Shown piece by piece: positions 4,701-43,311 of a stretch of DNA of 53,830 nucleotides (positions within the stretch are counted from its first letter, which is position 1; each line of letters opens with the position of its first letter). Under the pieces are notes generated by a model. It was not told where the DNA came from and did no database searches. It was given only the letters and a program-made list of their open reading frames with translations. This DNA is from a virus: positions 1 to 53,830 of the IMG/VR virus record IMGVR_UViG_3300029265_000685; one strand, written 5' to 3'. A program made the translations under genes and the position numbers.

Positions 4701-4726
4701 ACCCAAATTTAAAAACAAATTAGTTC

Positions 4727-5050
4727 ATGAAAAGATACGGAGGAATACAACAAATTAGAAATACAAACATTAATGCTGGTCCTCTTCGTGCACCTTATTA
4801 TAAGACTGTTTTGTACCCCGAAATCCCACCCAATCCAAATGATATTTGGGTTATTACTGACTTTGGGGATAGATTAGATTTACTAGCAAATCAGTTTTAT
4901 GGGGATGTAACCTTATATTGGATTATATCCTTAGGGAACCCAAACTACATAAGTTTTGGTTCATTATTTATTAATGAGGGAACCCAAATACGAATACCAG
5001 TTGACATTAATGGTATTTTAAATAGTTATAACACTTTAAATGAAATATAA
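4727..5050 (+). CDS. 53: baseplate wedge protein, gp53-like with LysM-type fold
   Basis: 107 residues. The core, about residues 45-90, reads DRLDLLANQFYGDVTLYWII followed by an NPNYI turn and an EGTQIRIP strand. This is the LysM-like pattern of T4 gp53 and related tail proteins. gp53 joins neighbouring wedges in the baseplate. The 107-residue length is shorter than T4 gp53 (about 196), so this is a compact version reduced to the LysM part. The stop codon is followed immediately by the start of the hub-like gene at 5051, indicating translational linkage. Confidence 0.75.
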   Translation: MKRYGGIQQIRNTNINAGPLRAPYYKTVLYPEIPPNPNDIWVITDFGDRLDLLANQFYGDVTLYWIISLGNPNYISFGSLFINEGTQIRIPVDINGILNSYNTLNEI

Positions 5051-20194: not shown

Positions 20195-21331
20195 ATGCTA
20201 AAAAAATTACAAGAACGAATATTCCCTTTCATAATAGCATTATCGGCATTATCCGTATCTGCATCAGCAGCCTTTTATTCCATTAGTGGTCTTAGTAAAT
20301 TATTTGCGGGGGCTGTAGTTGCTGTTATTATTATGGCCTCTTCATTAGAAGTAGCAAAATTAGTTATAGCCTCATTATTATATCAATATCGAAAGGTTCT
20401 ACCACTATTTCTAAAAATTTATTTATCAATAGCTTGTTTCATCCTCATTCTAATTACTAGTATGGGTATTTACGGCTTTCTATCCTCGGCATACCAAGAA
20501 ACAGCATCAAAATCCCTAAATATAGATTCTCAGATTACACTTATTGAAACTAGAAGGGATAATACAAAAGCACAACTTAACGTGTATGACGAAGAAAAAC
20601 AAAGCATCAATACTGCTGTGGCTGATTTACGTTCGGGCTTATCAAACAATATCATACAATATACAAACGCTGAAGGACAATTAATAACTACAACATCATC
20701 CTCAACACGTAGGGCATTGGAAAAACAACTAGATCAAGCAATAGATCGCCAAATAACCATCAATAGTAAAGTAGATGGTTTAAATGAGAAATTATTCAAA
20801 TATGAAACAGAAATAGTAGAAGTTTCTACTAATAGTGAAATAGCTGGGGAATTAGGACCATTAAAATATCTATCAGGATTAACTGGTATCCCCATGGATA
20901 AGATAATAAATTACTTACTTTTGACTATTGTATTTGTATTTGATCCTTTAGCTATTGCTTTAGTAATTGCTTCTAACTTTGCTTTTGCCCAATTAAAAGT
21001 CAAAACTAAAGAAAACATTTACGGAGAGGAATTACCAATAGTTGAAGAAACTTCCCAATCAGTTTGGGATGATATGATTCAAGAAGAAACTAATTATGTG
21101 GATGGTTATGATAATTTGGATGATAAGGTTGAAGTAGAAAAATATGTTACCGAGGGGTATGCAGTCGATGATAGTATTGAAGAAGAAATCAAAGAATCAG
21201 ATCTAACACCCCTAATTAAAGAAGAAGACGAATTGGTAATCAACCCACCCACATCTCCTTGGAGACAGACGAAAGTAATAAACAAAGAAGAAAAACGAAC
21301 TAGTGAAGATGATCTAACAAGAACATATTAA
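20195..21331 (+). CDS. multi-pass membrane protein with central coiled coil
   Basis: 378 residues. Hydrophobic helices lie at about 10-27, 33-57, 70-96 and 248-270. Between the third and fourth is a ~140-residue charged helical region with coiled-coil character, and the C-terminal ~100 residues are acidic and probably disordered. I have seen similar architecture in marine T4-like phages, but no function is known to me. It has its own promoter, P5. It might remodel the host membrane or act in exclusion; neither is shown. Confidence 0.6.
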   Translation: MLKKLQERIFPFIIALSALSVSASAAFYSISGLSKLFAGAVVAVIIMASSLEVAKLVIASLLYQYRKVLPLFLKIYLSIACFILILITSMGIYGFLSSAYQETASKSLNIDSQITLIETRRDNTKAQLNVYDEEKQSINTAVADLRSGLSNNIIQYTNAEGQLITTTSSSTRRALEKQLDQAIDRQITINSKVDGLNEKLFKYETEIVEVSTNSEIAGELGPLKYLSGLTGIPMDKIINYLLLTIVFVFDPLAIALVIASNFAFAQLKVKTKENIYGEELPIVEETSQSVWDDMIQEETNYVDGYDNLDDKVEVEKYVTEGYAVDDSIEEEIKESDLTPLIKEEDELVINPPTSPWRQTKVINKEEKRTSEDDLTRTY

Positions 21332-22286: not shown

Positions 22287-22550
22287 ATGTTAAAAGAATT
22301 AAAGGATAAAATCCACCAATTACAAGAATCAGAAAATTTTAATTTCACCTACCAAGGTATAGGATATATTCTAAGTTGCTATGGTGTAGGTCCCACGGGG
22401 GAGAAATATGTTGCCGTACATAAAACGAACAAATGGGGCAGATCAATGAATATTGATAAAATTACAGATAATTATATTATACTATATGATTTTAATATGA
22501 TGGATGTAAAATCAACTTATAAAATGAGTATTAAAAAAATAATATTATGA
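22287..22550 (+). CDS. hypothetical protein at the head of the preQ0 block
   Basis: 87 residues with a Lys-rich N-terminal helix followed by strands. It contains a short Gly/Tyr-rich turn, YGVGPTGEKY. No family recognised. Its stop overlaps the ATG of the DpdA-like gene (ATGA), suggesting coupled translation and a shared process. A role with DNA modification is guilt by association only. Confidence 0.55.
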   Translation: MLKELKDKIHQLQESENFNFTYQGIGYILSCYGVGPTGEKYVAVHKTNKWGRSMNIDKITDNYIILYDFNMMDVKSTYKMSIKKIIL

Positions 22551-23344
22551 TAAAATATTCACATGAAGTACCTTTATGTTTACTAGAAGATAGTAGAAAA
22601 TTTAATACTTATGACTACTGCTTACCCCATCTATTAGATGAGAATCAGGATTATTTAGAATTTTTTAGAAAATCAAAGAAAGATGGACGTTATATCATAA
22701 TGGATAATTCACTCCATGAATTAGGTAAAGCCTATGATTCTTATCGTTTATTACATTGGATCAACGAATTAAAACCAAATGAATTCATCATCCCTGATGT
22801 TTGGGAAGATATGGAAGGTTCAATTAAAAATGCTAAAACTTGGTTGAATTATAAACTACCCGAAGGTGTTGAAAAAGTAGTAGTTGTTCAAGCAACAACA
22901 CTCCATGAAGCATTTGAGTGTACTAAAATATATAAAGAGTTAGGTTACAAAAAAATCTGTTATTCTTATGGTGCCTCATATTACAATGACATAATCCCAC
23001 ACCCCAATAAAGATTTAGGTAAGGCATTAGGTCGCTTATTTGTAATTTCAATATTATATAATCAAGGTGTATTAACTGAAAATGATAGAATTCATTTGTT
23101 AGGTTGTGCAGTTCCTCAAGAATTTGGATGGTATGAAGATATTAAATGTATTGAATCTATAGATACTTCAAACCCCGTAATGGCTACTTTAGAAAATGTT
23201 AAATATACAGATGCAGGTTTAACTAAAAAACCAAAAGCAAATATGAATGATCACTTTGACATGATGTATGATGAGGTAGATTACGATTTATTAGATTACA
23301 ACTTAGAAAAATTTAAAACAATTAATAATTTAAAAACCAAATAG
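22547..23344 (+). CDS. dpdA: TGT-superfamily protein, candidate DNA 7-deazaguanine transglycosylase (DpdA-like)
   Basis: 265 residues. The order of motifs follows the TGT TIM barrel: IMDNSLHELG near residue 50 (where TGT has DSGGxQ), IIPDVWED near 83-90, VVVVQAT near 107, YSYGAS near 140, and HLLGCAVPQEF followed by IDTSNPV near 185-210, paralleling the TGT LMGVGxP...D segment with the nucleophilic Asp. In phages, DpdA exchanges guanine in DNA for a 7-deazaguanine base. FolE, QueD, QueE and QueC lie nearby, so the substrate is probably preQ0. It is shorter than bacterial TGT and lacks its C-terminal zinc-binding Cys cluster. Assignment is by pattern and context; a deviating TIM-barrel enzyme is the alternative. 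Confidence 0.72.
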   Translation: MIKYSHEVPLCLLEDSRKFNTYDYCLPHLLDENQDYLEFFRKSKKDGRYIIMDNSLHELGKAYDSYRLLHWINELKPNEFIIPDVWEDMEGSIKNAKTWLNYKLPEGVEKVVVVQATTLHEAFECTKIYKELGYKKICYSYGASYYNDIIPHPNKDLGKALGRLFVISILYNQGVLTENDRIHLLGCAVPQEFGWYEDIKCIESIDTSNPVMATLENVKYTDAGLTKKPKANMNDHFDMMYDEVDYDLLDYNLEKFKTINNLKTK

Positions 23345-23346
23345 TT

Positions 23347-23544
23347 ATGATTTCACTTTACGATTACACAGGAGAAAAAGATTGTGATGGGAGAGGATTA
23401 AGAGTTAATGCTTATGCAATACTTAAAAACCAACCATTTAAACAAAGATATTTAGAATTTGCGAATAGAGAAGTATTTTTATATACTAAAGAATTATTGG
23501 ATGAATACTTTGAAGTAGAAAAAATATTTAAAGTAAAGAAATAA
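23347..23544 (+). CDS. small hypothetical protein in the preQ0 block
   Basis: 65 residues, no membrane segment. It begins MISLYDYTGEKDCDG, then has a charged helical remainder. No family recognised. It sits two bases after the dpdA-like stop, so it belongs to the same transcript. Function unknown. Confidence 0.55.
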   Translation: MISLYDYTGEKDCDGRGLRVNAYAILKNQPFKQRYLEFANREVFLYTKELLDEYFEVEKIFKVKK

Positions 23545-23568
23545 CTAAATCAACAAAATAAAATACTA

Positions 23569-23784
23569 ATGGCTTTAAAAAAACAAACAATACGAGGTTT
23601 AGAAAAAATAACACTGAATGGTGATTCTACTACTAAAGAAGAATTAATTACTCTGAGTGAAAGCTGGAGTGAAAATGAAGAGTTAGTAGTAAGAAAAATC
23701 CTCCAACAAGGTGGAAAGTGTAAAATTGGGAAGGATGTTATAGCTGTAGTCCGCCCTGATGAAGTATACAGTTTAGTAAGATAA
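23569..23784 (+). CDS. small hypothetical protein in the preQ0 block
   Basis: 71 residues, soluble, with a Lys-rich N-terminus and a short beta-like C-terminal half (KCKIGKDVIAVVRPDEVY). No family recognised. It is separated by 24 bases from the previous gene and by 52 from queC. Function unknown; retention in the block suggests a small accessory. Confidence 0.55.
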   Translation: MALKKQTIRGLEKITLNGDSTTKEELITLSESWSENEELVVRKILQQGGKCKIGKDVIAVVRPDEVYSLVR

Positions 23785-23836
23785 CAGGATTAGCCTATAT
23801 CCTTAAACATACCAGGCACATTAAAATTAAAATACA

Positions 23837-24685
23837 ATGCAGATGAAATTAGATTTCGAACAAGAAAAACACGTAGTAGTATCACTCTCAGGTGGTATGG
23901 ATAGCTCAACATTATTACTTAGATGTTTAAAAGAATATGACACAGTAACTGCAATATCTTTTGATTATGGTCAAAAACATAGAGTTGAGTTAGAAAGAGC
24001 TCAATCGTTAATTGATTATCTAGAAGAAAATGGACATAAAGTAAACTATAAACAAATTAAATTAGATGGTTTATCAAGCTTATTGGACTCAGCGTTAGTT
24101 GAAGGTGGTAAAGAAGTTCCTGAAGGACATTATGCGGATGATAATATGAAAGCTACAGTTGTCCCTAATAGAAATAAAATATTTGCTTCAATTGTCCAAG
24201 CGGTAGCTTTATCCGTTGCTAATAAATCAGGAGAAACTTGTAATATCGCTTTAGGTATCCATGCTGGAGATCATCAAATTTATAAAGATTGTAGGCAAGA
24301 ATTTCGTGATGCTGACGATGCTGCTTTTAGAGAAGGTAACTGGGATGCTGAACGTGTGGGTTATTTTACTCCTTATCTTCTTGGGGATAAATATGATATT
24401 CTCCAAGATGGGGTAGCGCTATGCGAATACTTATGTATAGCATTTGACGACGTATATGCTCGTACTATCACATCATACAAACCTATATTTAATAAAGAAA
24501 CATTCGAATGGTATGCAGATTACAAATCAGCATCAAGTGTTGAACGTATTGAAGCATTTATAAAACTGGGTAGACCTGATCCTTCACAATACGCAGATGA
24601 GTCAGGTACTGTAAGTTGGGAAGTAGCGGTAGACCATGTAACTAAAGTATTAGTATTAAAAGCAGTAGTAGAACAATTAAAATAA
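23837..24685 (+). CDS. queC: 7-cyano-7-deazaguanine synthase QueC
   Basis: 282 residues. The PP-loop ATP-binding motif SGGMDSS lies at 18-24, followed by FDYGQKHRVEL and VVPNRNK, standard for QueC. The enzyme converts 7-carboxy-7-deazaguanine and ammonia to preQ0 using ATP. The C-terminal zinc cysteines of bacterial QueC are absent: where the Cys cluster is expected the protein reads YKSASSVERIEAF, so only the flanking SS-ERIEAF/DP landmarks remain. It belongs to the same transcript as queD and queE. Confidence 0.9.
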   Translation: MQMKLDFEQEKHVVVSLSGGMDSSTLLLRCLKEYDTVTAISFDYGQKHRVELERAQSLIDYLEENGHKVNYKQIKLDGLSSLLDSALVEGGKEVPEGHYADDNMKATVVPNRNKIFASIVQAVALSVANKSGETCNIALGIHAGDHQIYKDCRQEFRDADDAAFREGNWDAERVGYFTPYLLGDKYDILQDGVALCEYLCIAFDDVYARTITSYKPIFNKETFEWYADYKSASSVERIEAFIKLGRPDPSQYADESGTVSWEVAVDHVTKVLVLKAVVEQLK

Positions 24686-24690
24686 AATAA

Positions 24691-24951
24691 ATGAGTGATC
24701 GAGAAATAATGGATGGTAAAAAATATGAGATGGGTAATATTGAAAATTCACCATTTAAAAAAACAAGACGTTCTAAGAAAAAGAAAAAACAACAACTCCC
24801 AGATGCTAGAAAACATCAAATTGTAGGTTTTGTAAAATCTATAGTAAGGATTGCCGGATATATCCTTATTCCTTTTAATTTGGAGTCTGCGGTAATTCTT
24901 CTTATATTGAGCGAAATAGTAGTTAGAATTTTTCTTCCAGAATTAGTATAA
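24691..24951 (+). CDS. small basic membrane protein
   Basis: 86 residues. A very basic stretch (RRSKKKKKQQ) at about 27-36 is followed by two adjacent hydrophobic segments at about 48-62 and 65-80. It lies 5 bases after queC. A basic head with membrane tail suggests an inner-membrane protein touching nucleic acid or phospholipid; the function is unknown. Confidence 0.5.
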   Translation: MSDREIMDGKKYEMGNIENSPFKKTRRSKKKKKQQLPDARKHQIVGFVKSIVRIAGYILIPFNLESAVILLILSEIVVRIFLPELV

Positions 24952-24970
24952 ATTATAAAATAAATAAAAT

Positions 24971-25222
24971 ATGAATAAATTAATTTACATATCGAGTACA
25001 TGGTGTCAACCCTGTAAAACATTCTCACCCATAATGGATAAAGTATCATCCTCAGGTATTCCAGTACAAAAATTAGACGCTGATAAAGATCAGAATGCTT
25101 TAATGCAGTATGGTGTGAGGAGTATCCCAACAGTAGTTAAAGTAGATGCAAATGGGAATATGGTCGATAAATTTACAGGAGTAAAACAATTTCAAGAAAT
25201 AATTAATTTTTATAATAATTAA
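24971..25222 (+). CDS. thioredoxin-like protein
   Basis: 83 residues with active-site WCQPC at 11-15, a DADKD segment and the cis-proline loop SIPT near residue 51. This is a compact thioredoxin fold, shorter than host thioredoxin (about 105), closer to NrdH/glutaredoxin size. It can supply electrons to ribonucleotide reductase. The adjacent genes are for preQ0, so it could alternatively support a redox step there. Confidence 0.88.
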   Translation: MNKLIYISSTWCQPCKTFSPIMDKVSSSGIPVQKLDADKDQNALMQYGVRSIPTVVKVDANGNMVDKFTGVKQFQEIINFYNN

Positions 25223-25223
25223 A

Positions 25224-25688
25224 ATGGGAAAATTTCAATCGAGTAAAGTATTTGACGGATTCTCAACAGTATTTCGTCAGTGGAAAGCAGAAGATACTCA
25301 TTGTAGGTTTCTACATGGTTATGGTATATCTTTTAAAGTATATTTTGAAGGTGAATTAGATGATAGAAATTGGGTTTGGGATTTTGGAGGCATGAAAAGA
25401 GCTAAGACATTAATTGATGGTAAACAACCTAAAGAGTGGATGGATTTTATGTTTGATCATACTCTCATTGTAGCTGAAGATGATCCTGGAATGGGTGGTT
25501 GGAATACGATGAATGATTTAGGTGTAATCCAACTAAGAATTATTGAAGCTACTGGTGCCGAAAAATTCGCTGAATTTATTTTTAACAAATTAAATCCATT
25601 CGTACTAGAAGAAACTGATGGTAGGGTTAGAGTTACTAAAGTTAAATTCATGGAACACGGAAAAAATGCTGCATATTACGGTGAATAA
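25224..25688 (+). CDS. queD: 6-carboxy-tetrahydropterin synthase QueD
   Basis: 154 residues of the 6-pyruvoyl/6-carboxy-tetrahydropterin synthase fold: FSTVFRQW near 13-20, Cys27 and His31 in CRFLHGYG, WDFGGMK near 52-58, and FDHTLI near 77-82. It converts dihydroneopterin triphosphate to carboxy-tetrahydropterin, step two of the preQ0 route. The usual second His of HGH is Tyr33 and the His of FSxxH is Phe17, so zinc ligation differs from E. coli QueD; related variants exist in many bacteria, as I recall. It starts one base after the thioredoxin stop. Confidence 0.85.
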   Translation: MGKFQSSKVFDGFSTVFRQWKAEDTHCRFLHGYGISFKVYFEGELDDRNWVWDFGGMKRAKTLIDGKQPKEWMDFMFDHTLIVAEDDPGMGGWNTMNDLGVIQLRIIEATGAEKFAEFIFNKLNPFVLEETDGRVRVTKVKFMEHGKNAAYYGE

Positions 25689-25708
25689 CCACTTAAAAAA
25701 TTATAAAA

Positions 25709-26491
25709 ATGGAAAAGTTAAAAAGGGTAGAAGATTACGATAAAACTTTACCCATTGTAGAGATTTATACAGCTGTACAATCAGAGGGAAGCCGAGCTGG
25801 TTATCCAACAGTGGTAATTAGAACTACAGGGTGTACCCACAGGTGTCATTTTGGTGAAGGAGGTTGGTGTGATTCCTTTTATACCTCAATTCACCCCGAA
25901 AAAGGCACATTTAGTTTTAATGACATAATTGAAGCATATAAGAAAAATCCTCATATAAAAGAGATGATGTTAACTGGAGGTTCTCCAACTATGCATCCAG
26001 CTTTAGTAAATGAATTAACACATTTTGCTCATGAAAACGATATTTTCATTACTATTGAAACTGAAGGCTCGCATTTTCTACGCACTGATTATCCGATTAA
26101 TTTATTATCGATTTCTCCTAAATTCTCGAATTCAATCCCTGCTGTTGGGGTAAAAACACCCCAAGGTGGAATCACTGATGAGAGAATGATAAATAAACAT
26201 AATAAGCTTAGGCTTAATTATGGAGCAATAAAACGATCTATTGAATATCACTTAGACTACCACATAAAACCAGTATGGGATGGTAAAGATGAGGGTGCAT
26301 TAGCTGAGATTATAGAATGTATTTCTATATTAGACGTTCCTCAAGATAAAGTATGGTTTATGCCCGCTGGGGATTCAAGAGAATCATTATTTAAATCATA
26401 CCCTCTAGTATTTGATTGGGTTAGAGATAATGGTTATAGAATGACTTGGCGCCCACATATTATAGCCTTTGAAGACGCGAGAGAGGTATGA
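25709..26491 (+). CDS. queE: 7-carboxy-7-deazaguanine synthase QueE (radical SAM)
   Basis: 260 residues. QSEGSRAG at 24-31 and the SAM cluster cysteines 42, 46 and 54 (CTHRCHFGEGGWCD) are followed by LTGGSPT near 89-95 and ETEGS near 113. QueE rearranges carboxy-tetrahydropterin into the 7-deazaguanine ring, using a 4Fe-4S cluster and SAM. The cysteine spacing is CX3CX7C, with five residues inserted relative to the common CX3CX2C; other QueE subfamilies also have inserts here. It is the third enzyme of the pathway encoded in this window. Confidence 0.9.
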   Translation: MEKLKRVEDYDKTLPIVEIYTAVQSEGSRAGYPTVVIRTTGCTHRCHFGEGGWCDSFYTSIHPEKGTFSFNDIIEAYKKNPHIKEMMLTGGSPTMHPALVNELTHFAHENDIFITIETEGSHFLRTDYPINLLSISPKFSNSIPAVGVKTPQGGITDERMINKHNKLRLNYGAIKRSIEYHLDYHIKPVWDGKDEGALAEIIECISILDVPQDKVWFMPAGDSRESLFKSYPLVFDWVRDNGYRMTWRPHIIAFEDAREV

Positions 26492-26516
26492 TAACGTTTA
26501 AAGAAAATAAATAATT

Positions 26517-26693
26517 ATGGAAAACGTAGCAAAAGAAATAGTTGCAGGTATTAATAAAACAACTAATGATTATGATGCCGCCGAAGAAGTAGATAGGATA
26601 TTAAAGAAATATTTAGTTAAGAGAAAATCCCAAAAATATGAAAGAACTAATAAATCAGAAATCAATAGAAATTCAAACCAAGATAATAGCTAA
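26517..26693 (+). CDS. 58-residue hypothetical protein overlapping the phosphoribosyltransferase gene
   Basis: A short frame encoding 58 residues, hydrophilic and charged, starting MENVAKEIVAGINKTTNDYD. Its last 56 bases overlap the start of the phosphoribosyltransferase gene in another frame. The first 38 residues look like a designed helix and the overlapped C-terminal part is Asn/Ser/Arg-rich, as expected of an overprinted tail. No family recognised. The leader AATAAATAATTATG matches other starts. Confidence 0.5.
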   Translation: MENVAKEIVAGINKTTNDYDAAEEVDRILKKYLVKRKSQKYERTNKSEINRNSNQDNS

Positions 26694-27141
26694 TCAAATT
26701 ACAGCGAAACATAAGGATGATAAAACATCTATTGTTATGGTTGGTTTACTTAATGGTTGTTTTGCGTTTTACAGCGATTTAGTTCGAGCTATGCCAATTG
26801 ATGTGGAATGTGATTTTATGCGCGTTAAATCGTATATAAATCGCAAACAAGGTGATATAAAAATCACTAAAGACTTAGAGACACCTATCAAAGGTAAGCA
26901 TGTTTACATCGTAGATGATATCTACGATACAGGTAATACAATGAAAGCCGTAATTGAATATTTAGAAGTTAAAAACCCATCATCAATATCGATAGCAACT
27001 TTAATTACAAGAGAAACTAGTCCTATTCCTACCCAACCCTTATTTAATGCTTTTACTATTAAAGATGAATGGGTGATCGGATTTGGAATGAATAATGATA
27101 AAGGATATTGCAGAAATTTACCTTCAATTTGGGCTCTGTAA
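26638..27141 (+). CDS. hypoxanthine/guanine phosphoribosyltransferase-like protein
   Basis: 167 residues of type I PRTase fold. The PRPP-binding motif VYIVDDIYDTGNTM lies at about 88-101, preceded by GLLNGCFAFYSDL near residues 36-48 and a Lys-containing strand DVECDFMRVKSY. The C-terminal EWVIGFGMNNDKGYCRNL matches HPRT proteins. It salvages a purine base to its nucleotide using PRPP. Its place between queE and folE suggests purine or deazapurine handling. Substrate specificity cannot be read from sequence. Confidence 0.78.
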   Translation: MKELINQKSIEIQTKIIANQITAKHKDDKTSIVMVGLLNGCFAFYSDLVRAMPIDVECDFMRVKSYINRKQGDIKITKDLETPIKGKHVYIVDDIYDTGNTMKAVIEYLEVKNPSSISIATLITRETSPIPTQPLFNAFTIKDEWVIGFGMNNDKGYCRNLPSIWAL

Positions 27142-27157
27142 ATAATGTTCGTATATT
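27128..27157 (+). promoter_or_regulatory. early/middle-type promoter P8 for folE and the split polymerase genes
   Basis: TTTGG at 27128-27132, 19 bases, TATATT at 27152-27157 preceded by TTCG. The upstream element lies within the last codons of the phosphoribosyltransferase gene, so the promoter is nested in its 3' end. The folE ATG follows at 27182. Confidence 0.8.
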
Positions 27158-27181
27158 ATAGTATAAATAAAAAAGTTATAA

Positions 27182-27877
27182 ATGGAAAATAAACGTAGAA
27201 AAATCCACGAGGAGTTAGAAGTGGTGCAAACAGGTTTTGCTAATGGGGTTGCTGAGGGTTTTCCTCTAAGTGATGATGCAAAACAAGAAATGATTAATGA
27301 AGCAACTATCGCTTATGGTAAATTTTTAGATGCACTAAAGTGTGATTGGAGGAATGATCCAAATTCTATGGAAACACCAAAAAGAGTTTCAAAAGCTTAT
27401 GTAAATGATTTATGGTCAGGTAGATATACAGCAATGTCTCCAATAACTTCATTCCCATCTGATGGTTATGATGGTATTATTATTGAACGTAATATACCTT
27501 TAACTAGTATGTGTAGTCACCACCACCAAACAATTAGTGGTGTAGTTCATATTGGATACATTGCCGGAGAAGAAGGTCAAGTAATTGGTTTATCTAAATT
27601 GAATAGGATTGTAGAATTATTTGGTAGAAGAGGAGCAATACAAGAACAATTAACATCAGCTATCCATGGAGCTACAGATAAAATTACTGAAGATAATTTA
27701 GGTGTAATTGTAACAATTGTAGCAGGTCATTCATGTGTAAGTTGTAGAGGTGTTAAACATTCGGGTGCTTCAATGGTTACAACAAAAGCCTCAGGAGTAT
27801 TTAGAGAAAATGGTAATAATGCTCGTAAGGAGTTTTTTGACAGTTTAAAAATTAATAACGGAGGACATCAAATATAA
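27182..27877 (+). CDS. folE: GTP cyclohydrolase I FolE
   Basis: 231 residues. The zinc-binding MCSHHHQT (Cys111, His113/114) and HSCVSCRG (Cys185) are in FolE-I order, with GLSKLNRIVELFGRR between. It converts GTP to dihydroneopterin triphosphate, the first step of the preQ0 (and folate) route. It completes the four-enzyme set with queD, queE and queC, although it is transcribed from its own promoter P8. A pseudogene is unlikely because all ligands are present. Confidence 0.93.
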   Translation: MENKRRKIHEELEVVQTGFANGVAEGFPLSDDAKQEMINEATIAYGKFLDALKCDWRNDPNSMETPKRVSKAYVNDLWSGRYTAMSPITSFPSDGYDGIIIERNIPLTSMCSHHHQTISGVVHIGYIAGEEGQVIGLSKLNRIVELFGRRGAIQEQLTSAIHGATDKITEDNLGVIVTIVAGHSCVSCRGVKHSGASMVTTKASGVFRENGNNARKEFFDSLKINNGGHQI

Positions 27878-27891
27878 AATAAATAATAGTT

Positions 27892-28407
27892 ATGGAGAAA
27901 AATAAAAGTAATGTACAATTTATTGATGAAGTTGAGGAGTTTAATGCTACTATGGGTAAGCCAAATAACTACTCTCCTACAATTCCCGAAAAAAAAGAAT
28001 GGCAATTTGTTTATGATTTTGTTCTCGAAGAACTCGAAGAGTATAAAGCAGCCTGTGAGGCAGGTGATATTGTTGAGGTTCTTGATGCTTTATGTGACAT
28101 TGCCTACGTTTCATTTGGTAACGGCTCTATGTTACATGGTCTTAAGGATAAAATACGGCCAGCATATCAAGAAGTACAAGCGTCGAATATGTCAAAGGCT
28201 TGTATTAACGAAGAAGATGCACAAGCGACCGTTGAAAGACGTTCCGCTGAGCAAAAGACACCATGTCACTATGAGAAGGTTGGAGAATATTTTATTGTCT
28301 ATAGAACGTCGGATCGTAAAGTGATGAAAAACATTAATTATTTTAGACCAGATTTGAAACAATTTTTTACTGAAGATGAGATAAAGAATGCATCTTTAAA
28401 AGATTAA
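27892..28407 (+). CDS. MazG/PRA-PH-like nucleoside pyrophosphohydrolase
   Basis: 171 residues. EELEEYKAACEAGDIVEVLD followed by ALCDIAYVSFG near residues 43-75 gives the ExxE...D metal-binding arrangement of MazG and phosphoribosyl-ATP pyrophosphohydrolase folds. The C-terminal part is charged and unrecognised. Such phage enzymes hydrolyse unwanted nucleoside triphosphates or control (p)ppGpp-like signals. It lies between folE and the polymerase, so control of modified or normal dNTPs is plausible. Confidence 0.72.
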   Translation: MEKNKSNVQFIDEVEEFNATMGKPNNYSPTIPEKKEWQFVYDFVLEELEEYKAACEAGDIVEVLDALCDIAYVSFGNGSMLHGLKDKIRPAYQEVQASNMSKACINEEDAQATVERRSAEQKTPCHYEKVGEYFIVYRTSDRKVMKNINYFRPDLKQFFTEDEIKNASLKD

Positions 28408-28425: not shown

Positions 28426-30108
28426 ATGAGTTTCAAGAAATGTTTTGCTAAAAGATTAGGGGGGAATGATTATCTCATACACCTATGGACTGATGAGGGT
28501 GGTTATGAGAAGGTAGAATGGACTAACCAAGCCTATACTGAATGTGGGGAAGCTGATGCTTCCCACCTTGGTTTGAATGGTGAACCTTTACGTAAAGTTA
28601 GAAATTGGAATAGAGAAGATCCAAAACTCCACTTCCATGATATGACCCCATATCAAAAATTCCTAGTTGAAAAATATGGAGTTAATGATGAACCATCTAC
28701 AACTCAAAGGGAAATATTTTTCGATATTGAGATTGAAATGGGGGGAGCTCTTACCGAAGAATATATAAAATCAGCACCTAAGAAGGTTACATCAATTGCT
28801 TGGTATGATAAACAAGTTGATTTGTGGGGCATCTTAATATTAGATGCTAAGGATAATTTAAAACATACAAAAACTAAAAATCGGGAAATAATCCCATGTC
28901 GTACTGAAGATGAACTATTAATGAAGTTTATTGAGAAGTTTAGAGAAATGGATCCTGACATAATTGTAGGATGGAATAGTGATTATTTTGATATTCCCTA
29001 TTTATATTATAGAATGTGTAATGTTTTAGGACAAGATATTGCCCGTTATTTATCCCCAATTGGTTATGTTAGAGAAACTCCTTGGTATAAGGATCAATTC
29101 ATACAAATAGCAGGTGTAGAATCACTTGATTATATGCGTTTACATAAGAAATTTAGTTGGGCGGATGAACCATCATTTAAGTTAGATGCTATTGGTGAAA
29201 AATATGCTGGGTTAAATAAAATTGAATACGATGGAAATTTAGATGATTTATTTGAAGAAGATCCATTAAAATTTATTCAATACAACTTTAGAGATGTTGA
29301 AATACTTAAAGTATTAGATGAAAAGTTAGAATATTTATCCCTAGTTAAAAATTTAGCACATAAAGGTAAACATAATTATAGTGAGGTTTATGCTAATACC
29401 AAAACACAAGATGGCGCTATTTCAGCTTATCTATTGAGTAAAGGTATTGTTCCACCTGCTAAAGAACGCAACCCATTATCTAAGAAAAACTATGCTGGTG
29501 GATATTTATTTTGCCCTAAAGCAGGTATTTACAATTATATGTTTGATGAAGATTTAACTTCACTATACCCTTCAATTATTATGACTATTAATATTGGTAA
29601 GGAAACAATGATTGGGAGAATAATTGATGCTGATGATAGAAATAATCGTTTAGGATTAAATGATTTAAAAAAGAGAGATCCTGAGGAAGAATTAATGGTT
29701 GAAAATGCCAAACGTAGACGTACTAAAGTACCAGTATCTAAACTGGTTAGGATGATTGAAGAAAATAAACTCTCAGTCTCGGCAAATGGTGTTTTATTTT
29801 CAACAGATAATGAATCAGTATTAAGTACTATTCTAAAAAAATGGTTTGATGAACGTGTTTTATATAAAAATAAAATGAAAGAAGCATATCAAGCTGGTAA
29901 TAATGAATTAGGTGCAAGTTTTCATATGAAACAATATACGATGAAAATTTTACTTAACAGTTTATATGGAGCTACAGCATTAGGTAGTTTTAGATATGGT
30001 AATGTAATACTATCAGAAGCAATTACATTGTCAGGTCAAAGAATCATTCAAGAATCAGCTTTAACAGCAAATAGACACATGAATAAAGTAATTCGCAAAC
30101 AAATATAA
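28426..30108 (+). CDS. gp43A: family B DNA polymerase, N-terminal part (gp43A): exonuclease, motif A and motif B
   Basis: 560 residues. The exonuclease motifs are FDIEIEMGG near 98-106, IVGWNSDYFDIPYL near 181-194 and YNFRDVEILKVL near 287-298. Polymerase motif A is DEDLTSLYPS near 373-382 and motif B is KILLNSLYGA near 506-516. It ends after the motif B helix; motif C, DTD, is in the next gene. This is the T4 gp43 order, cut in the palm. The stop is two bases before the gp43B ATG. Both halves would have to assemble for activity. Confidence 0.92.
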   Translation: MSFKKCFAKRLGGNDYLIHLWTDEGGYEKVEWTNQAYTECGEADASHLGLNGEPLRKVRNWNREDPKLHFHDMTPYQKFLVEKYGVNDEPSTTQREIFFDIEIEMGGALTEEYIKSAPKKVTSIAWYDKQVDLWGILILDAKDNLKHTKTKNREIIPCRTEDELLMKFIEKFREMDPDIIVGWNSDYFDIPYLYYRMCNVLGQDIARYLSPIGYVRETPWYKDQFIQIAGVESLDYMRLHKKFSWADEPSFKLDAIGEKYAGLNKIEYDGNLDDLFEEDPLKFIQYNFRDVEILKVLDEKLEYLSLVKNLAHKGKHNYSEVYANTKTQDGAISAYLLSKGIVPPAKERNPLSKKNYAGGYLFCPKAGIYNYMFDEDLTSLYPSIIMTINIGKETMIGRIIDADDRNNRLGLNDLKKRDPEEELMVENAKRRRTKVPVSKLVRMIEENKLSVSANGVLFSTDNESVLSTILKKWFDERVLYKNKMKEAYQAGNNELGASFHMKQYTMKILLNSLYGATALGSFRYGNVILSEAITLSGQRIIQESALTANRHMNKVIRKQI

Positions 30109-30110
30109 CT

Positions 30111-31043
30111 ATGAAACATTTACAAGACGTACCATGGTGGATATGTGATCCCGAAGATATTAATTATGTAGCATACTCAGATACGGATTCTATCTATATC
30201 CATGCCGAACCATTACTTAAATTTCTATATCCTGACTTTGATGATATGCCTAGTGAGAAGAAAGATGATTTATTAGAAGAAGAAGCAATAAAATATCAAC
30301 ATATTATAACAGATTCATATAGTGATTTAGCTAGGGATTGTTTTAATGCTAAGGGAGAACATAGACTAGAAATGAAAACAGAATGTGTTATCAGATCAGC
30401 ATATTTTAGAGCTACTAGGCGTTATGCCCAATGGATTACTAAACAAGAAGGTATGACAAAGGAATCACTTGACGTTAAAGGACTAGAGTTTAAAAAAGCA
30501 AATTTCCCACCAGTGTTAGGTAAATTTTTTCATAAAATCCTCATTGATGTGTTAAAAGGCACAACACAACCAGAGATTGATGCTCGTGTCAAAGCATTTA
30601 GACAGCAAATATTAGACGGCACTATACCGCTAACTGAGTTAGGAAATCCCACATCAGTGAAAACATTAAATAAGTATACTGAACGTAAGGCACGTGCTGG
30701 GGAAATGATGACTACTGTTGCTAAAGGTGCACCAGCTGCTGTAAGAGCAGTTATTAGACATAATGATTTACTAAGATTTTGGGGGTTAAATGGTAAACAT
30801 AGTACTATTACTCAAGGTGATAAGGTTAAGTGGATTTATTTAAAATCAAACCCATATCACATTGATGCCGTTGCCTTTTTAGACTATGATATTGCAGATA
30901 AGGTTCGTACATTCATCGAAGAATATGCCGACCGTAGGAAAATTTTTGAATCAATATTACTTAATAAAGTCGAGGGGTTTTATGGAGATTTACAATGGTC
31001 ACTTAACCTCAACCCATATCGCGAAATGTTTTTTAACTTATAA
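30111..31043 (+). CDS. gp43B: family B DNA polymerase, C-terminal part (gp43B): motif C and thumb
   Basis: 310 residues. Motif C YSDTDSIYI lies at about 22-30, supplying the second pair of catalytic Asp residues. The rest matches the palm end and thumb: KTECVIRSAYFRATRRYAQW and GLEFKKANFPP, ending SLNLNPYREMFF with a hydrophobic tail that could bind the clamp. It begins two bases after the gp43A stop in a different frame (offset +2). Known T4-like relatives of Aeromonas have split gp43 with an endonuclease gene between the parts; here there is none. The frame before 30111 is open only to 30087, so true separation is favoured. Confidence 0.9.
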   Translation: MKHLQDVPWWICDPEDINYVAYSDTDSIYIHAEPLLKFLYPDFDDMPSEKKDDLLEEEAIKYQHIITDSYSDLARDCFNAKGEHRLEMKTECVIRSAYFRATRRYAQWITKQEGMTKESLDVKGLEFKKANFPPVLGKFFHKILIDVLKGTTQPEIDARVKAFRQQILDGTIPLTELGNPTSVKTLNKYTERKARAGEMMTTVAKGAPAAVRAVIRHNDLLRFWGLNGKHSTITQGDKVKWIYLKSNPYHIDAVAFLDYDIADKVRTFIEEYADRRKIFESILLNKVEGFYGDLQWSLNLNPYREMFFNL

Positions 31044-37823: not shown

Positions 37824-39254
37824 ATGAAAGAAGGATATATAAAAAAAGAAGATAGGAAGAAAATCCTCCTCCTAACAGATGACATTCGTGTCCATTCAGG
37901 AGTTGCACAAATTGGTAGAGAGATGGTTATACATACCTCCCATCGTTATAATTGGGTTCAATTAGCCGGTGCTGTTGAACATCCTGAAAAAGGGAAGAGA
38001 ATTGATATTTCTGAAGATAACAATAAACAATCTGGTATTGATGATTCATCTGTAATTCTATATCCTACAGATGGGTATGGTGATCCTGATATTTTGAGAA
38101 GCATAATTGAATTAGAAAAACCCGATGCTATTTTCTTAATTACAGATCCAAGATATTTTACATGGCTTTTCCAAATGGAAAATCAAATTCGTAAACATAT
38201 ACCTATCATCTACCTAAATATTTGGGATAGTATGCCAGCACCTATGTATAATAAAGAATTTTACGAATCTTGTGATGCATTATTTGGTATTTCTAAACAA
38301 ACAGTAGGTATTAATCAAATTGTTTTAGGTGAAAAGGGAAAGAATAAAATTATTAAATATGTTCCTCATGGTTTAAATAATAAAATGTTTAAACCTGTTG
38401 ATAAATCAAACAAGGATTTAAAGGATTTTAAAAAATATTTATCAAAAGGTAAGGAATATAATTTCACCTTATTATTCAACTCCAGAAATATTAGACGTAA
38501 ATCTATACCTGATACTATCCTAGCTTGGAAGTTATTTTTAGAAAAACTCCCAAAAGAAGAATCAGATAAGTGTTTATTTGTTCTCCACACTGAGCCTGTA
38601 AGTAATCATGGAACTGATTTAGGAGCAGTTATAGAATTTCTATTCCCTGAAGAGAATTCAAATATAGTAATTTCCAACGAAAAATTATCCACAAGTCAAA
38701 TGAATTTGATGTATAATATTGCCGATGGTGTTATTTTAATGTCATCAGCTGAAGGTTGGGGATTATCATTAACTGAATCATTATTAACTGGTACTCCTAT
38801 TATAGCAAACACTACAGGGGGAATGCAGGATCAGATGAGATTTGAGGATGGTAATGGTGATTGGATTAATTTCACTAAAGATTTTCCATCAAATCATAGG
38901 GGTACTTATAATAAACATGGGAAATGGGCATTACCAATATATCCCACTAATCTATCAATTGTAGGTTCACCACAAACACCATATATCTATGATGATAAGG
39001 CATCTTTCGAAGATGCATCTGATAGAATAATGGAACTTTATAAGATGGGGGATGAAAAAAGAAAAGAAATAGGTCAAGAAGGTATGGAGTGGGCATTAGG
39101 AGATGAAGCAGGTTTTACATCTGAGAAAATGTCAAATCGTATCATTGAAGGAATTGACGAACTACTTGATACTTGGACACCTAGAGAAAAATTTGAATTC
39201 TTAAAAGATACAGATTATGAGAAAAAAGTTTTAAAACATAAAATAATTTACTAA
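37824..39254 (+). CDS. glycosyltransferase, GT4-like
   Basis: 476 residues in two Rossmann-like halves. The C-terminal half has SSAEGWGLSLTESLLTGTPI near residues 307-326, the EX7E motif and Gly-rich loop of retaining GT-B enzymes, and an NTTGGMQDQM loop. It transfers a sugar from a nucleotide donor. It overlaps nothing but ends directly before the next glycosyltransferase ATG. The acceptor is unknown: virion protein, DNA base or surface sugar. Confidence 0.8.
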   Translation: MKEGYIKKEDRKKILLLTDDIRVHSGVAQIGREMVIHTSHRYNWVQLAGAVEHPEKGKRIDISEDNNKQSGIDDSSVILYPTDGYGDPDILRSIIELEKPDAIFLITDPRYFTWLFQMENQIRKHIPIIYLNIWDSMPAPMYNKEFYESCDALFGISKQTVGINQIVLGEKGKNKIIKYVPHGLNNKMFKPVDKSNKDLKDFKKYLSKGKEYNFTLLFNSRNIRRKSIPDTILAWKLFLEKLPKEESDKCLFVLHTEPVSNHGTDLGAVIEFLFPEENSNIVISNEKLSTSQMNLMYNIADGVILMSSAEGWGLSLTESLLTGTPIIANTTGGMQDQMRFEDGNGDWINFTKDFPSNHRGTYNKHGKWALPIYPTNLSIVGSPQTPYIYDDKASFEDASDRIMELYKMGDEKRKEIGQEGMEWALGDEAGFTSEKMSNRIIEGIDELLDTWTPREKFEFLKDTDYEKKVLKHKIIY

Positions 39255-40574
39255 ATGAAGAATACATTTTATATAAGTTGCCCAATAGACACATATTCAG
39301 GATATGGGGCGCGAGCAAGAGATTTTGTAAAAGCTATAATTAAGAGTGATAAATATGATGTAAAAATCATACCTCAAAGATGGGGAAGTACTCCATATGG
39401 TTTTATCAAAGACCATAATAAAGATTGGGGATTTTTAACACCCCACCTACTCCATCTTAAAGATGGTAAATTACCAAACCAACCAGATGTGTGGTGTCAG
39501 GTTACAATCCCTAACGAATTTCAAAAAATTGGGAAGTATAATATAGGATTAACTGCCGGAATTGAAACAACAGCCTGTGCTGCTCCATGGATCGAGGGAT
39601 GTAATAGGATGGATTTAATCCTAACATCATCAAATCACTCAAAAGGTGTATTTGAAAATACAAGTTATGTAGCCCGAGATAAAAATGGTAATGAGTTTCC
39701 ACTTAAATTAGAAACCCCTTGTGAGGTACTTATTGAGGGAGCTGATTTAGATGTTTATAAACCACTTAAAACACCCTTGACCAATGTTTCTTTATTTAAA
39801 AGCATTGACTCAATTCCTGAAAATTTTGCTTATTTATATGTTGGGCATTGGATGACTGGTCAAATCGGTGAAGATAGAAAAAATGTTGGTTTATTGATAA
39901 AAGCATTTTACGAATTATTTAAAAATAAAAAAGGTAAAAAACCAGCATTGATTTTAAAAACAAGTGGAGGTGGTGCTAGTTATATGGATAGGAATGAAAT
40001 TCAAAAACGCATAAATTCAATCAGAGAAACTGTTCCGTCTGGAGATTTACCTAATGTTTACTTACTCCACGGTGAATTTTCTAATGAGGAGATAAATGAA
40101 TTATATAACCATCCTAAAGTTAAAGCTATGGTTAGTTTAACTAAGGGTGAGGGATTTGGTCGCCCACTATTAGAATTTAGTTTAACAAACAAACCTATCA
40201 TAACAACAGGTTGGTCAGGTCAAGTTGATTTCTTAAAACCGGCATTTACGGGTTTATTAGGGGGTAAGTTAACCAAAGTCCACCCATCAGTTCAACAAAA
40301 AGATATGTTGATTGAGGGTTCTGAGTGGTTTAGTGTTGACCATAACCATATAGGCCACTTTCTTACAGATGTATTTAAAAATTATAAAGATTGGAAGGTA
40401 AAAGGTAAACGCCAAGGACACTATAGTAGAACAAATTTCAGTTTTGAAAAAATGGAAAAACAATTAGACGACCTATTAATAAAATACATTCCTGTAATAT
40501 CAACCAAAGTAGAATTAAAACTACCGCTTTTAAGTGGTAAAAAAATGAATTTACCAAATCTTAAAAAAATATAA
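39255..40574 (+). CDS. glycosyltransferase, GT-B like
   Basis: 439 residues. SLTKGEGFGRPLLEFSLTNK near residues 295-314 is a GT-B donor-binding motif, followed by TTGWSGQVDFL. The N-terminal DTYSGYGARARDF segment resembles a glycogen-synthase type Gly-rich start. Its stop overlaps the next ATG by one base. With the preceding gene it makes a pair of GT-B enzymes, probably acting in sequence on one glycan. Confidence 0.78.
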   Translation: MKNTFYISCPIDTYSGYGARARDFVKAIIKSDKYDVKIIPQRWGSTPYGFIKDHNKDWGFLTPHLLHLKDGKLPNQPDVWCQVTIPNEFQKIGKYNIGLTAGIETTACAAPWIEGCNRMDLILTSSNHSKGVFENTSYVARDKNGNEFPLKLETPCEVLIEGADLDVYKPLKTPLTNVSLFKSIDSIPENFAYLYVGHWMTGQIGEDRKNVGLLIKAFYELFKNKKGKKPALILKTSGGGASYMDRNEIQKRINSIRETVPSGDLPNVYLLHGEFSNEEINELYNHPKVKAMVSLTKGEGFGRPLLEFSLTNKPIITTGWSGQVDFLKPAFTGLLGGKLTKVHPSVQQKDMLIEGSEWFSVDHNHIGHFLTDVFKNYKDWKVKGKRQGHYSRTNFSFEKMEKQLDDLLIKYIPVISTKVELKLPLLSGKKMNLPNLKKI

Positions 40575-41044
40575 TGGAAAAAATAATAAATTGTGATAGA
40601 TGTGATGGTGATTGTTGCTATGTCCAAGAAGTAAATGATGAAATTAAAAACTACCAATGTATGGGGTGTGGTTTCATTACTAACTCGCTAATGAAGAAAG
40701 ATTCCCAATTTTTAGAAGAACAAATGGAAATCCTCCCAAACCTATATAAAGAATTAATGGGTGAAGATAAGGAGGGTAAAATTTGGATGCCTACAACAAT
40801 TAACTTACCTTCACAGGGTATGATATTTGCTAATGGTACTAGTATCGATAACTGGAATTGGGGGGCTGTAAAATCAATCCCCGTAAAAGAAGAAGAAAAA
40901 GAAAAATATCCAATTCCCGGTAAAGATGGGGAGTTTTATAAAAAACGAATGGATATGGATACTATAAAAGAATTTAATGAGGGGGATTTTGTTGATGCTC
41001 TAGAATACATTGGAATGTTTAATAATGGTGAAGATGAAGATTAG
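40574..41044 (+). CDS. zinc-ribbon-containing hypothetical protein
   Basis: 156 residues. The N-terminus has CDRCDGDCC and later CMGCGF, four or more cysteines of a zinc ribbon within the first 35 residues. The rest has a segment rich in Trp, Pro and Lys. The gene overlaps both neighbours (1 base and 11 bases). No family recognised; by position it belongs with the glycan genes. Confidence 0.55.
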   Translation: MEKIINCDRCDGDCCYVQEVNDEIKNYQCMGCGFITNSLMKKDSQFLEEQMEILPNLYKELMGEDKEGKIWMPTTINLPSQGMIFANGTSIDNWNWGAVKSIPVKEEEKEKYPIPGKDGEFYKKRMDMDTIKEFNEGDFVDALEYIGMFNNGEDED

Positions 41045-41657
41045 TTACGCTATAACAGTATGTAATGAGTTTGTAGAAATACAAAAACTCATACCATTTC
41101 TTTTAAAAAACAAAAGACATGAGGATGAAATCGTAGTTCTATACGATTCAAAAAATGGTTCTAAATCAGTAGAAACATTCCTAAGAGCAAAATCAATTAA
41201 TGGTGAATTTGCATGGCATGGTAAAGAATTCAATAACCATTTTGCAGATTGGAAAAATTATTTAACATCATTATGTGGTGGGGATTATATATTTCAAATT
41301 GATGCCGATGAAATTCCTAACAAAATATTAATTCACCATCTACCTGAAGTATTAGAATTAAATCCAGATACTGAAGTTTATCGGGTGCCTAGAGTTAATA
41401 CCGTGAGTGGATTGGAGAAAGAACACATTGATAAGTGGGGATGGATAGTAAGCGATGATAGAAAGGTAAATTGGCCAGATCCACAGTGGAGGATTTATAA
41501 AAATGATCCTAAAATCAGATGGGAAAATAAAGTCCATGAAGTATTAGAGGGTTATACTACTAAAGCAGATTTACCTTATCTTGAAGAGTGGGCTTTATAT
41601 CACCCAAAAACAATAGAAAGACAAGTCAAACAAAATAATTATTATAACACACTATAA
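41034..41657 (+). CDS. glycosyltransferase family 2-like protein
   Basis: 207 residues from the ATG at 41034, chosen because MKISYAITVCNEF is a typical family 2 N-terminus; an upstream ATG at 41010 would add eight residues. The donor-binding IDADEIP near residue 88-94 is a DXD-type motif. It transfers a sugar or glycan from a nucleotide sugar. The start overlaps the previous gene by 11 bases and the end overlaps the epimerase start by one. Confidence 0.72.
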   Translation: MKISYAITVCNEFVEIQKLIPFLLKNKRHEDEIVVLYDSKNGSKSVETFLRAKSINGEFAWHGKEFNNHFADWKNYLTSLCGGDYIFQIDADEIPNKILIHHLPEVLELNPDTEVYRVPRVNTVSGLEKEHIDKWGWIVSDDRKVNWPDPQWRIYKNDPKIRWENKVHEVLEGYTTKADLPYLEEWALYHPKTIERQVKQNNYYNTL

Positions 41658-42667
41658 TGGAAAATAAAAAAACAATATTAATCACAGGTGTAGCAGGTTT
41701 ACTAGGTAGTAGATTGGCAGATTGGATTATTACTAATAAGCCAGAATATAAAGTAGTAGGTATTGATGATTTAAGTGGAGGGTTTATAGAAAATATTCAC
41801 CCCAAAGTAATTTTCCACCAATTAAATCTAGTAGATGGTGCGATTGATAACGTATTTAATGCGCATAAAATCGATTATGTTTACCATTTCGCAGCCTATG
41901 CTGCAGAAGGTTTATCACCGTTTATACGCGCGTATAACTACGATAATAATTTAAAATCAACAGCCCGTGTAGTTAATGAGTGTATAAAGCATGATATTAA
42001 GCGATTAGTATTTACATCAACTTTAGCAGTATATGGACATGGTGAAGGTGGTATATTTCATGAAGATCAACAACCATCACCTATAGATCCATATGGAGTA
42101 GCAAAATATGCTTGTGAAATGGATATTAAAATAGCTGGTGAACAACATGGTTTGGATTATTGTATAATCAGACCTCATAATGTGTATGGTGTTAAACAAA
42201 ATATTTGGGATAAATATCGGAATGTATTAGGTATTTGGATGTTCCAACATCTAAATAATGAACCTATGACAATTTTTGGAGATGGTGAACAAACAAGATC
42301 ATTCAGCTTTATTGATGACTCAATTGAACCCCTATTTAATGCATCAGTAAGACCTGAAGCTAGTAAAGAAACAATTAATTTGGGGGGTATTGAAGAAATA
42401 TCTATAAATGAAGTTAGTAAGGTTTTATGTAAAGTCATAGGTGAAGATGTTGACATGGTGTATTTAGAAGGTAGACATGAGGTAAAACATTCAATTCCTA
42501 CATATCAAAAATCAATTGATATTTTAGGATTTGAGTATAAAACATCGATGCATGAAGGTTTAACCCAAATGTGGGAGTGGGCTAAAACCCAACCTATGAG
42601 AGATAGATTTGTTTGGGATAAGTATGAATTAGATAAGGGGATATATAGCTTTTGGAAAACAAATTAA
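41657..42667 (+). CDS. NAD-dependent epimerase/dehydratase (GalE-like)
   Basis: 336 residues of the extended SDR family. TGVAGLLGSRLADW at 10-23 is the NAD-binding Gly-rich loop, and the active-site Tyr and Lys are in YGVAK at 146-150. A Ser/Thr near 120 (TSTLAVYG) completes the set. It interconverts or dehydrates nucleotide sugars, making donors for the neighbouring glycosyltransferases. The exact sugar is not readable. It begins one base inside the previous stop. Confidence 0.85.
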   Translation: MENKKTILITGVAGLLGSRLADWIITNKPEYKVVGIDDLSGGFIENIHPKVIFHQLNLVDGAIDNVFNAHKIDYVYHFAAYAAEGLSPFIRAYNYDNNLKSTARVVNECIKHDIKRLVFTSTLAVYGHGEGGIFHEDQQPSPIDPYGVAKYACEMDIKIAGEQHGLDYCIIRPHNVYGVKQNIWDKYRNVLGIWMFQHLNNEPMTIFGDGEQTRSFSFIDDSIEPLFNASVRPEASKETINLGGIEEISINEVSKVLCKVIGEDVDMVYLEGRHEVKHSIPTYQKSIDILGFEYKTSMHEGLTQMWEWAKTQPMRDRFVWDKYELDKGIYSFWKTN

Positions 42668-42686
42668 AAAATAAAAAGAAAAAATT

Positions 42687-43310
42687 ATGAAAAATGTTTA
42701 TGATGTTACTAATGAGTTTGAAAGAAAGTTAGGAGAATATACAGGTGCGCCTTACGTAGTTTGTGTTGATAATGCTAGTAATGCTTTATTTCTAAGTTTA
42801 ATGTACGAAAAGGTAAGTGGGTTAGAGATTGAATTACCTAATAGAACATACCCCTCAGTACCTTGTGAGGTAATTCATGCTGGTGCTAAAATTAAATGGA
42901 GGAAAGTTAAGGGTAAAACAATTAAGGGTGCCTACAATTTAGGTGGTACTAAAGTTTGGGATGCCGCATTATCATTTACAACTGATATGTACAAATCTAA
43001 CACCCATATGTGTTTATCATTTACAGGTCCTTACAAACATTTTAAACTATCAAAAGGTGGAGCTATACTAACTGATGATCACGACGCATATATGTGGTTT
43101 AAACGTGCTAGATACAGTGGTAGACGTGAATGTTCGTACCATGATGACAACTTTGATATGTTAGGGTGGAACTTTTATATGATGCCCGAAATAGCAACTA
43201 GAGGATTATTACTTATGGGTCAGTTTTGGAATGGGGAACAACCCATTGTGAATGAAGATAAAGAAATGCCATACCCAGATTTATCAAAATACCCAATTTT
43301 TAACCAATAG
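42687..43310 (+). CDS. DegT/DnrJ/EryC1-type aminotransferase-like protein, C-terminally short
   Basis: 207 residues, against about 370 for full-length family members. The fold starts with FERKLGEYTGAPYVVCVDNA and a DNASNALFL stretch. LSFTGPYKHFKLSKGGA at about 112-128 carries a candidate PLP lysine, and RARYSGR follows. The small C-terminal domain is missing. The stop is followed by the WbqC-like gene in another frame and no remaining domain was seen there, so this is a real shortening, or a partner-dependent or non-catalytic protein. Confidence 0.65.
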   Translation: MKNVYDVTNEFERKLGEYTGAPYVVCVDNASNALFLSLMYEKVSGLEIELPNRTYPSVPCEVIHAGAKIKWRKVKGKTIKGAYNLGGTKVWDAALSFTTDMYKSNTHMCLSFTGPYKHFKLSKGGAILTDDHDAYMWFKRARYSGRRECSYHDDNFDMLGWNFYMMPEIATRGLLLMGQFWNGEQPIVNEDKEMPYPDLSKYPIFNQ

Positions 43311-43311
43311 T

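Follow-up and report, generated by a model that had tools for sequence, protein, structure and literature searches.

A probable 7-deazaguanine DNA-modification cassette with a linked guanine phosphoribosyltransferase in a T4-like marine phage

The gene cassette

IMG/VR virus record IMGVR_UViG_3300029265_000685 is a 53.8-kb fragment (53,830 nucleotides, hereafter the window), in which a + strand series at positions 22547-28407 encodes, in order, a protein resembling tRNA-guanine transglycosylase (TGT), QueC, a thioredoxin, QueD, QueE, an Hpt-type phosphoribosyltransferase (PRTase), FolE and MazG. We consider this region to be probably a DpdA3-type cassette for 7-deazaguanine modification of DNA, carried by a T4-like marine phage and equipped with a proposed means of guanine recycling. 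Its genes are as follows.

22547..23344, + strand: predicted DpdA3-type DNA guanine transglycosylase, 265 residues, a minimal TGT barrel with no zinc domain (phrog_19058, E=1e-41; fold)
23837..24685, + strand: QueC, 7-cyano-7-deazaguanine synthase, SGGMDS PP-loop present, four zinc cysteines lost (PF06508, E=5e-35; PHROGs, 2e-42)
24971..25222, + strand: thioredoxin-like protein, upstream of queD (PF00085, E=2.5e-12)
25224..25688, + strand: QueD of a divergent subfamily (C-x3-HGY, FRQ for HGH, AAH) (PF01242, PTPS, E=3e-14; PHROGs, 1e-37)
25709..26491, + strand: QueE, radical SAM 7-carboxy-7-deazaguanine synthase, CX3CX7C (phrog_2076, E=1e-52; PF04055, E=5e-6)
26638..27141, + strand: Hpt-type hypoxanthine-guanine PRTase, the proposed guanine recycler (PF00156, E=9e-24; PDB HGPRTs, E=5e-30)
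27182..27877, + strand: FolE, GTP cyclohydrolase IA, zinc ligands present (PF01227, E=2e-40; PHROGs, 3e-55)
27892..28407, + strand: MazG-like nucleotide pyrophosphohydrolase, the constant folE neighbour (PF01503, E=9e-10)

The original prediction for this DNA had named FolE, QueD, QueE, QueC and the 22547 gene. All five are complete open reading frames that begin where it placed them on the + strand, and profile searches of Pfam and PHROGs (structure prediction for the 22547 protein) confirmed their identities, the QueE radical SAM Pfam match falling slightly below the curated cut-off (27.4 versus 29.5 bits). The list was incomplete, however, in that it passed over the most informative additional part, the guanine PRTase at 26638-27141, which lies within the interval described and carries the phosphoribosyl pyrophosphate (PRPP) motif VDDIYDTGNT. 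The order of the cassette is kept in 18 loci collected through DpdA and in 160 loci collected through the PRTase (PRT-first loci), and since homologues retain the same cassette, a chance grouping is excluded. The thioredoxin-like gene precedes queD in most loci and MazG lies near the PRTase in 139 of the 160 PRT-first loci; a part for MazG in the 7-deazaguanine pathway is unproven.

The TGT-like protein and the final base

No named Pfam family matched the 22547 protein above cut-off, its sole match being PHROG 19058, of unknown function. A tblastn search of 50,697 phage records returned homologues in Flavobacterium phage immuto and in 14 Campylobacter phage records (the CP220/F379 group) with 37-39% identity at 97-98% coverage, and the immuto homologue is annotated 'DNA guanine transglycosylase'. 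An AlphaFold model built on 14 homologues had a mean predicted local distance difference test score (pLDDT) of 91, and its top Foldseek matches were all TGTs (E=1e-7 to TGT), in agreement with the TGT-superfamily assignment of the original prediction, which had proposed such a structural check. The best VIA-align match was the DNA preQ0 insertase DpdA (7ui4; Z 16.4, 232 residues aligned, root-mean-square deviation 3.5). Note that other TGTs score Z 15-16, and DpdA and TGT are thus tied: for the modelled protein only the fold is proved. When the DpdA alignment was run as a sequence profile against the PDB, the only matches were designed TIM barrels and chance similarities; the link to TGT and DpdA is carried by fold rather than by sequence.

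Residues D53, D206, H183, G186 and R163 are invariant in the 14 homologues (D53 and D206 down to 18% identity) and D206 follows an H-L-L-G motif in TGT-like spacing. We propose D53 and D206 as the catalytic aspartate pair, an assignment made by motif and not by superposed residues. The features of tRNA-type TGTs were not found in the protein, which has no PF01702 match and no conserved cysteine cluster. A profile (A3) joins it with the DpdA proteins of the Campylobacter firehammerviruses and immuto, and on sequence grounds we file it with that group, which we take to be the DpdA3 of Cui et al. 2023. The same profile also matches the DpdA relatives of phages phiST, StAshley and MaInes. In one metagenomic contig (L015, 10001-10780) the DpdA reading frame has two stop codons.

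The TGT fold, together with homologues in firehammerviruses, the DNA of which has deoxyguanosine completely replaced by 7-deazaguanine derivatives (PMC10273834), supports the earlier reading of the cassette as one for DNA modification. We regard 7-deazaguanine modification of the phage DNA as very probable, and near-complete replacement of guanine, argued by analogy with those phages, as a somewhat favoured outcome. The modification itself is ordinary in kind, adding a new case to the DpdA3 type of firehammerviruses and immuto.

The pathway stops at preQ0 unless a further enzyme acts. Missing genes were judged from relatives, since the window record is a 53.8-kb fragment. The window's own clade includes three ~164-kb contigs (G019-G021, which may be a single virus species) with DpdA, FolE and gp43 72%, 87% and about 81-85% identical to those of the window, and in these QueF, a formyltransferase and a class-II amidotransferase are all missing. 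Because these relatives lack the three enzymes, preQ0 or 7-amido-7-deazaguanine (ADG) is our best guess for the final base and seems likely when set against the preQ1 types, which strengthens the original choice of preQ0 over preQ1; between preQ0 and ADG, we infer preQ0. Genes outside the window could instead convert the base to preQ1 or formyl-preQ1, as QueF and a formyltransferase are found in immuto and in five large sister-clade contigs. This outcome is improbable, however, because the QueF-bearing relatives are more distant (DpdA 34-36% identical in those measured, FolE about 60%), whereas the much closer own-clade contigs have neither enzyme in about 164 kb.

A guanine phosphoribosyltransferase linked to the pathway

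The neighbourhood that holds the Hpt-type PRTase in the window holds another PF00156 protein in immuto and several relatives. This second protein is Gpt-type and closest to the archaeal GpT-1 purine PRTases (E=3e-18). IMG/VR was searched with an alignment of each PRTase, giving 222 relatives of the Hpt type and at least 552 of the Gpt type on viral contigs, and the best 80 loci of each type were examined. Genes of the 7-deazaguanine pathway (Que, FolE or DpdA) lie beside the PRTase in 77 of the 80 Hpt-type and 76 of the 80 Gpt-type loci, and the two types were never seen in one locus. Among loci in which folE was seen along with the PRTase gene, the distance between the two is within 150 bp for 57 of 66 Hpt genes and for 66 of 74 Gpt genes. 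Three Hpt loci have no pathway neighbours; two of them are on long contigs and encode QueD elsewhere in the record. These 160 loci represent related phages rather than independent events.

Among annotated phages the Gpt-type PRTase is nearly confined to lineages that have the 7-deazaguanine pathway. It was found in all 15 records of the firehammervirus group, in immuto and in Cellulophaga phages phiST, phi13:1 and phi19:2, as well as in Brevundimonas phages StAshley and MaInes, directly 3' of folE, and in cyanophage BUCT-ZZ01, where it separates queE from the queD/folE pair. The other matches were two human-fecal contigs and two contigs of <5 kb bearing E. coli and Salmonella phage labels. In BUCT-ZZ01 (L036) QueE, the Gpt-type PRTase, QueD and FolE form one run at 4048-6828, and no DpdA3 match was found there. 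The PF00156 matches in phages VpKK5 and MMDA13 were short pieces below cut-off and were not counted, and the Hpt matches given by tblastn of the phage collection were set aside, as they seem to be bacterial contigs with wrong labels.

The exchange of Hpt for a different subfamily, Gpt, in the same neighbourhood points to their common substrate, guanine or hypoxanthine, and we think it fairly likely that the PRTase recycles guanine. We also lean, by a small margin of belief, toward the view that 7-deazaguanine phages have recruited a guanine PRTase (Hpt- or Gpt-type) more than once to close a guanine loop, which would make it an unrecognised recurrent part of DpdA3 cassettes. A literature search gave no description of a PRTase tied to preQ0 and DpdA, although the two most relevant papers lay outside that search and we thus make no claim of priority. 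Literature joining guanine phosphoribosyltransferase, 7-deazaguanine and phage consisted only of unrelated Staphylococcus work, and the PRTases named beside queuosine genes in the papers examined are nicotinamide PRTases. The linkage of the guanine PRTase seems to be the part of this system that is new.

Proposed guanine loop, alternatives and known systems

From the genes, the fold, the homologues in phages with modified DNA and the repeated linkage of guanine PRTases to the pathway, we infer a scheme that takes DNA as the substrate. FolE, QueD, QueE and QueC would make preQ0 from GTP, and the 22547 protein would put preQ0 in the place of guanine in phage DNA, freeing one guanine per modified site. 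By analogy with the firehammerviruses, most or all guanines would probably be affected. The 26638 PRTase, using PRPP, would convert the freed guanine to GMP, which would remove a base of poor solubility and replenish the GTP pool for FolE. A ~164-kb genome of about 33% G+C has about 54,000 guanines, and by calculation a burst of 100 in a 1-fL cell would release guanine to about 9 mM, greatly exceeding its solubility, which is in the tens of micromolar.

Several considerations weigh against this scheme. The window is only a fragment, so that downstream enzymes of the same phage may lie outside it. Hosts have guanine PRTases of their own. In an alignment the Hpt protein of the window has Arg at the position of the purine-contact Lys and Asn in place of an Asp conserved near the C-terminus; the Asp is retained in the Hpt proteins of relatives L003 and L006. 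No PRTase was found in the DpdA3-like phages BSP7, Youna2 and MA9V-3 or in the 160.9-kb contig G008, and the PRTase is therefore common in DpdA3-like lineages but not essential. Conversely, the large phage contigs G025 and G027 (L135 and L141) have Hpt and QueD with no DpdA3 match and may use another inserting enzyme. In favour of the link, fifteen other QueD-bearing phages sampled through QueC gave no DpdA3-profile match and no PF00156 protein above cut-off, in a scan that missed the divergent firehammervirus PRTases found by tblastn and that could likewise miss divergent PRTases of these control phages. When only lineages not picked through the PRTase are counted, it is present in three of six DpdA3 lineages (firehammerviruses, immuto and the window clade; not BSP7, Youna2 or MA9V-3) versus none of the 15 others (Fisher p about 0.015, calculated by hand).

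Also to be set against the scheme are the oddities of the preQ0 enzymes. The statement in the original prediction that most catalytic motifs are present is right overall, but does not extend to the zinc ligands of QueC and QueD, and the cluster cysteines of QueE are spaced CX3CX7C. Alignment with zinc-bearing QueCs showed that all four zinc cysteines are gone from the QueC of the window clade, whereas they are retained in CP220, nt-1, VogelGryff, TA17A, BSP7 and StAshley. The cysteine-less kind makes up 77 of the 82 QueCs from PRT-first loci. Two of the three zinc histidines of QueD are replaced across the clade (FRQ and HGY versus the canonical AAH and HGH) and an extra His lies ahead of the catalytic Cys. 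StAshley and BUCT-ZZ01, both of which have a PRTase, share this FRQ/HGY QueD; BSP7 and Youna2, which have none, do not share it. Although both proteins are atypical, they are still likely to function because the whole pathway is retained in the clade. Moreover, QueF-bearing relatives (L114) have the same cysteine-less QueC, and as QueF reduces a nitrile, such a QueC probably still makes preQ0.

The main alternative to exchange in DNA is a pre-replicative route in which nucleotides are the substrate of the small TGT barrel (dGMP that MazG makes from dGTP would be one) and a kinase then makes a modified triphosphate for the phage polymerase. MazG adjoins the cassette in 139 of the 160 loci, a P-loop kinase-like gene is found next to DpdA3 in the phages immuto, CP220, BSP7, Youna2 and MA9V-3, and the 22547 protein, at 265 residues, is shorter than TGT or DpdA (about 350-413). 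Guanine would be freed in this route as well, and thus the PRTase would fit. However, the neighbourhood of DpdA in the window showed no kinase-like gene, the known DpdAs act on DNA, and phosphates of the ADG deoxynucleoside (dADG) were reportedly not found in the nucleotide pools of firehammervirus infections; we therefore consider the route unlikely. Less likely still is that the PRTase acts on the 7-deazaguanine base itself, giving a ribonucleotide that passes through ribonucleotide reductase to the DNA polymerase. Although the PRTase adjoins folE, the reductase genes NrdA/NrdB lie upstream in the same region and the purine-contact residue of the window Hpt is altered, this would make the DpdA3 retained alongside superfluous, and the use of two distinct guanine PRTase subfamilies points to guanine. 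The FolE/QueDEC pathway also makes queuosine, but that preQ0 merely boosts host tRNA queuosine while the TGT-like protein acts on tRNA, an idea proposed for phage queuosine genes (PMC5587285) and a refuting possibility named in the original prediction, is very improbable, given a DpdA-like gene in the cassette with a DNA insertase as its closest structural match, homologues in phages with modified DNA and no PF01702 TGT found in 11 large relatives (weak evidence, as that model also misses three known DpdA phages).

The surroundings of the cassette are those of a T4-like phage. A split T4-like DNA polymerase (gp43) directly follows MazG, at 28426-31043, as two open reading frames of 560 and 310 residues, two bases apart; gp43 is split also in relatives L003 and L017 and is a single frame of 916 residues in L010. 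Other replication genes in the window encode a UvsX-like recombinase, a DnaB-like helicase, NrdA/NrdB and a clamp loader, and GroEL is also encoded. Upstream of DpdA, at 20195-21331, is a membrane-like protein of 378 residues and unknown function that is kept in that position in most relatives. The conserved reading frame upstream of DpdA (cluster c7) was considered as a kinase and rejected, as its sequences have no P-loop. In five lineages of reference phages, P-loop kinase-like genes adjoining DpdA3 or one gene off are found, in L002 (27570-28091), L021 (20494-21036), L033 (8336-8896), L034 (8465-8932) and L035 (3387-3935). Positions 37824-46116 encode glycosyltransferases, a nucleotide-sugar epimerase and aminotransferase-like and acetyltransferase-like proteins, as for surface or virion glycan synthesis. 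DpdA relatives also occur in contigs of bacterial and archaeal metagenome-assembled genomes (L254-L261), three of the eight being labelled Flavobacteriales, Flavobacteriaceae or Winogradskyella. These labels hint at a flavobacterial host, and the host of the phage is probably among the Flavobacteriia.

If true, phage-borne guanine salvage would explain how the one free guanine per replaced site is handled, and the guanine PRTase could serve as a genomic marker of phages with heavy 7-deazaguanine substitution. A further question on which it bears is whether DNA is modified after replication or a modified dNTP is made first. Given the numbers of PRTase matches the marine clade is large, and DNA of this type may be common in seawater.

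Of the known systems, immuto (vB_FspM_immuto_2-6A, NC_055915) is like the window in its QueC (72% identity), QueE (82%), QueD (70%), FolE (60%) and DpdA (37%), in a PRTase directly 5' of folE and in a cysteine-less QueC. It differs in having a Gpt-type rather than Hpt-type PRTase, QueF, a formyltransferase, a kinase-like gene and a family A polymerase. The Campylobacter firehammerviruses (CP220, F379) share the DpdA homologue (37-39%), the Que pathway and a guanine PRTase (there Gpt-type, in 15 of 15 matched records), but their pathway genes are scattered with no compact cassette and their QueC has the zinc cysteines. Phages with DpdA1 or DpdA2 (CAjan, Rosebush and nt-1) likewise combine the preQ0 pathway with a TGT-superfamily DNA transglycosylase, and in CAjan and Rosebush about 30% of G is modified (PMC6884629). 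In contrast to the window, those sampled (nt-1, the CAjan-like VogelGryff and the Rosebush-like TA17A) gave no DpdA3-profile match and no guanine PRTase. The bacterial DpdA 7ui4 has the same fold as the 22547 protein but only 14% identity, and 413 versus 265 residues. Finally, the phage PRTases resemble bacterial Hpt (window PRTase, E=5e-30) and archaeal GpT-1 (immuto type), from which they differ in being carried by phages and in their tie to 7-deazaguanine genes.

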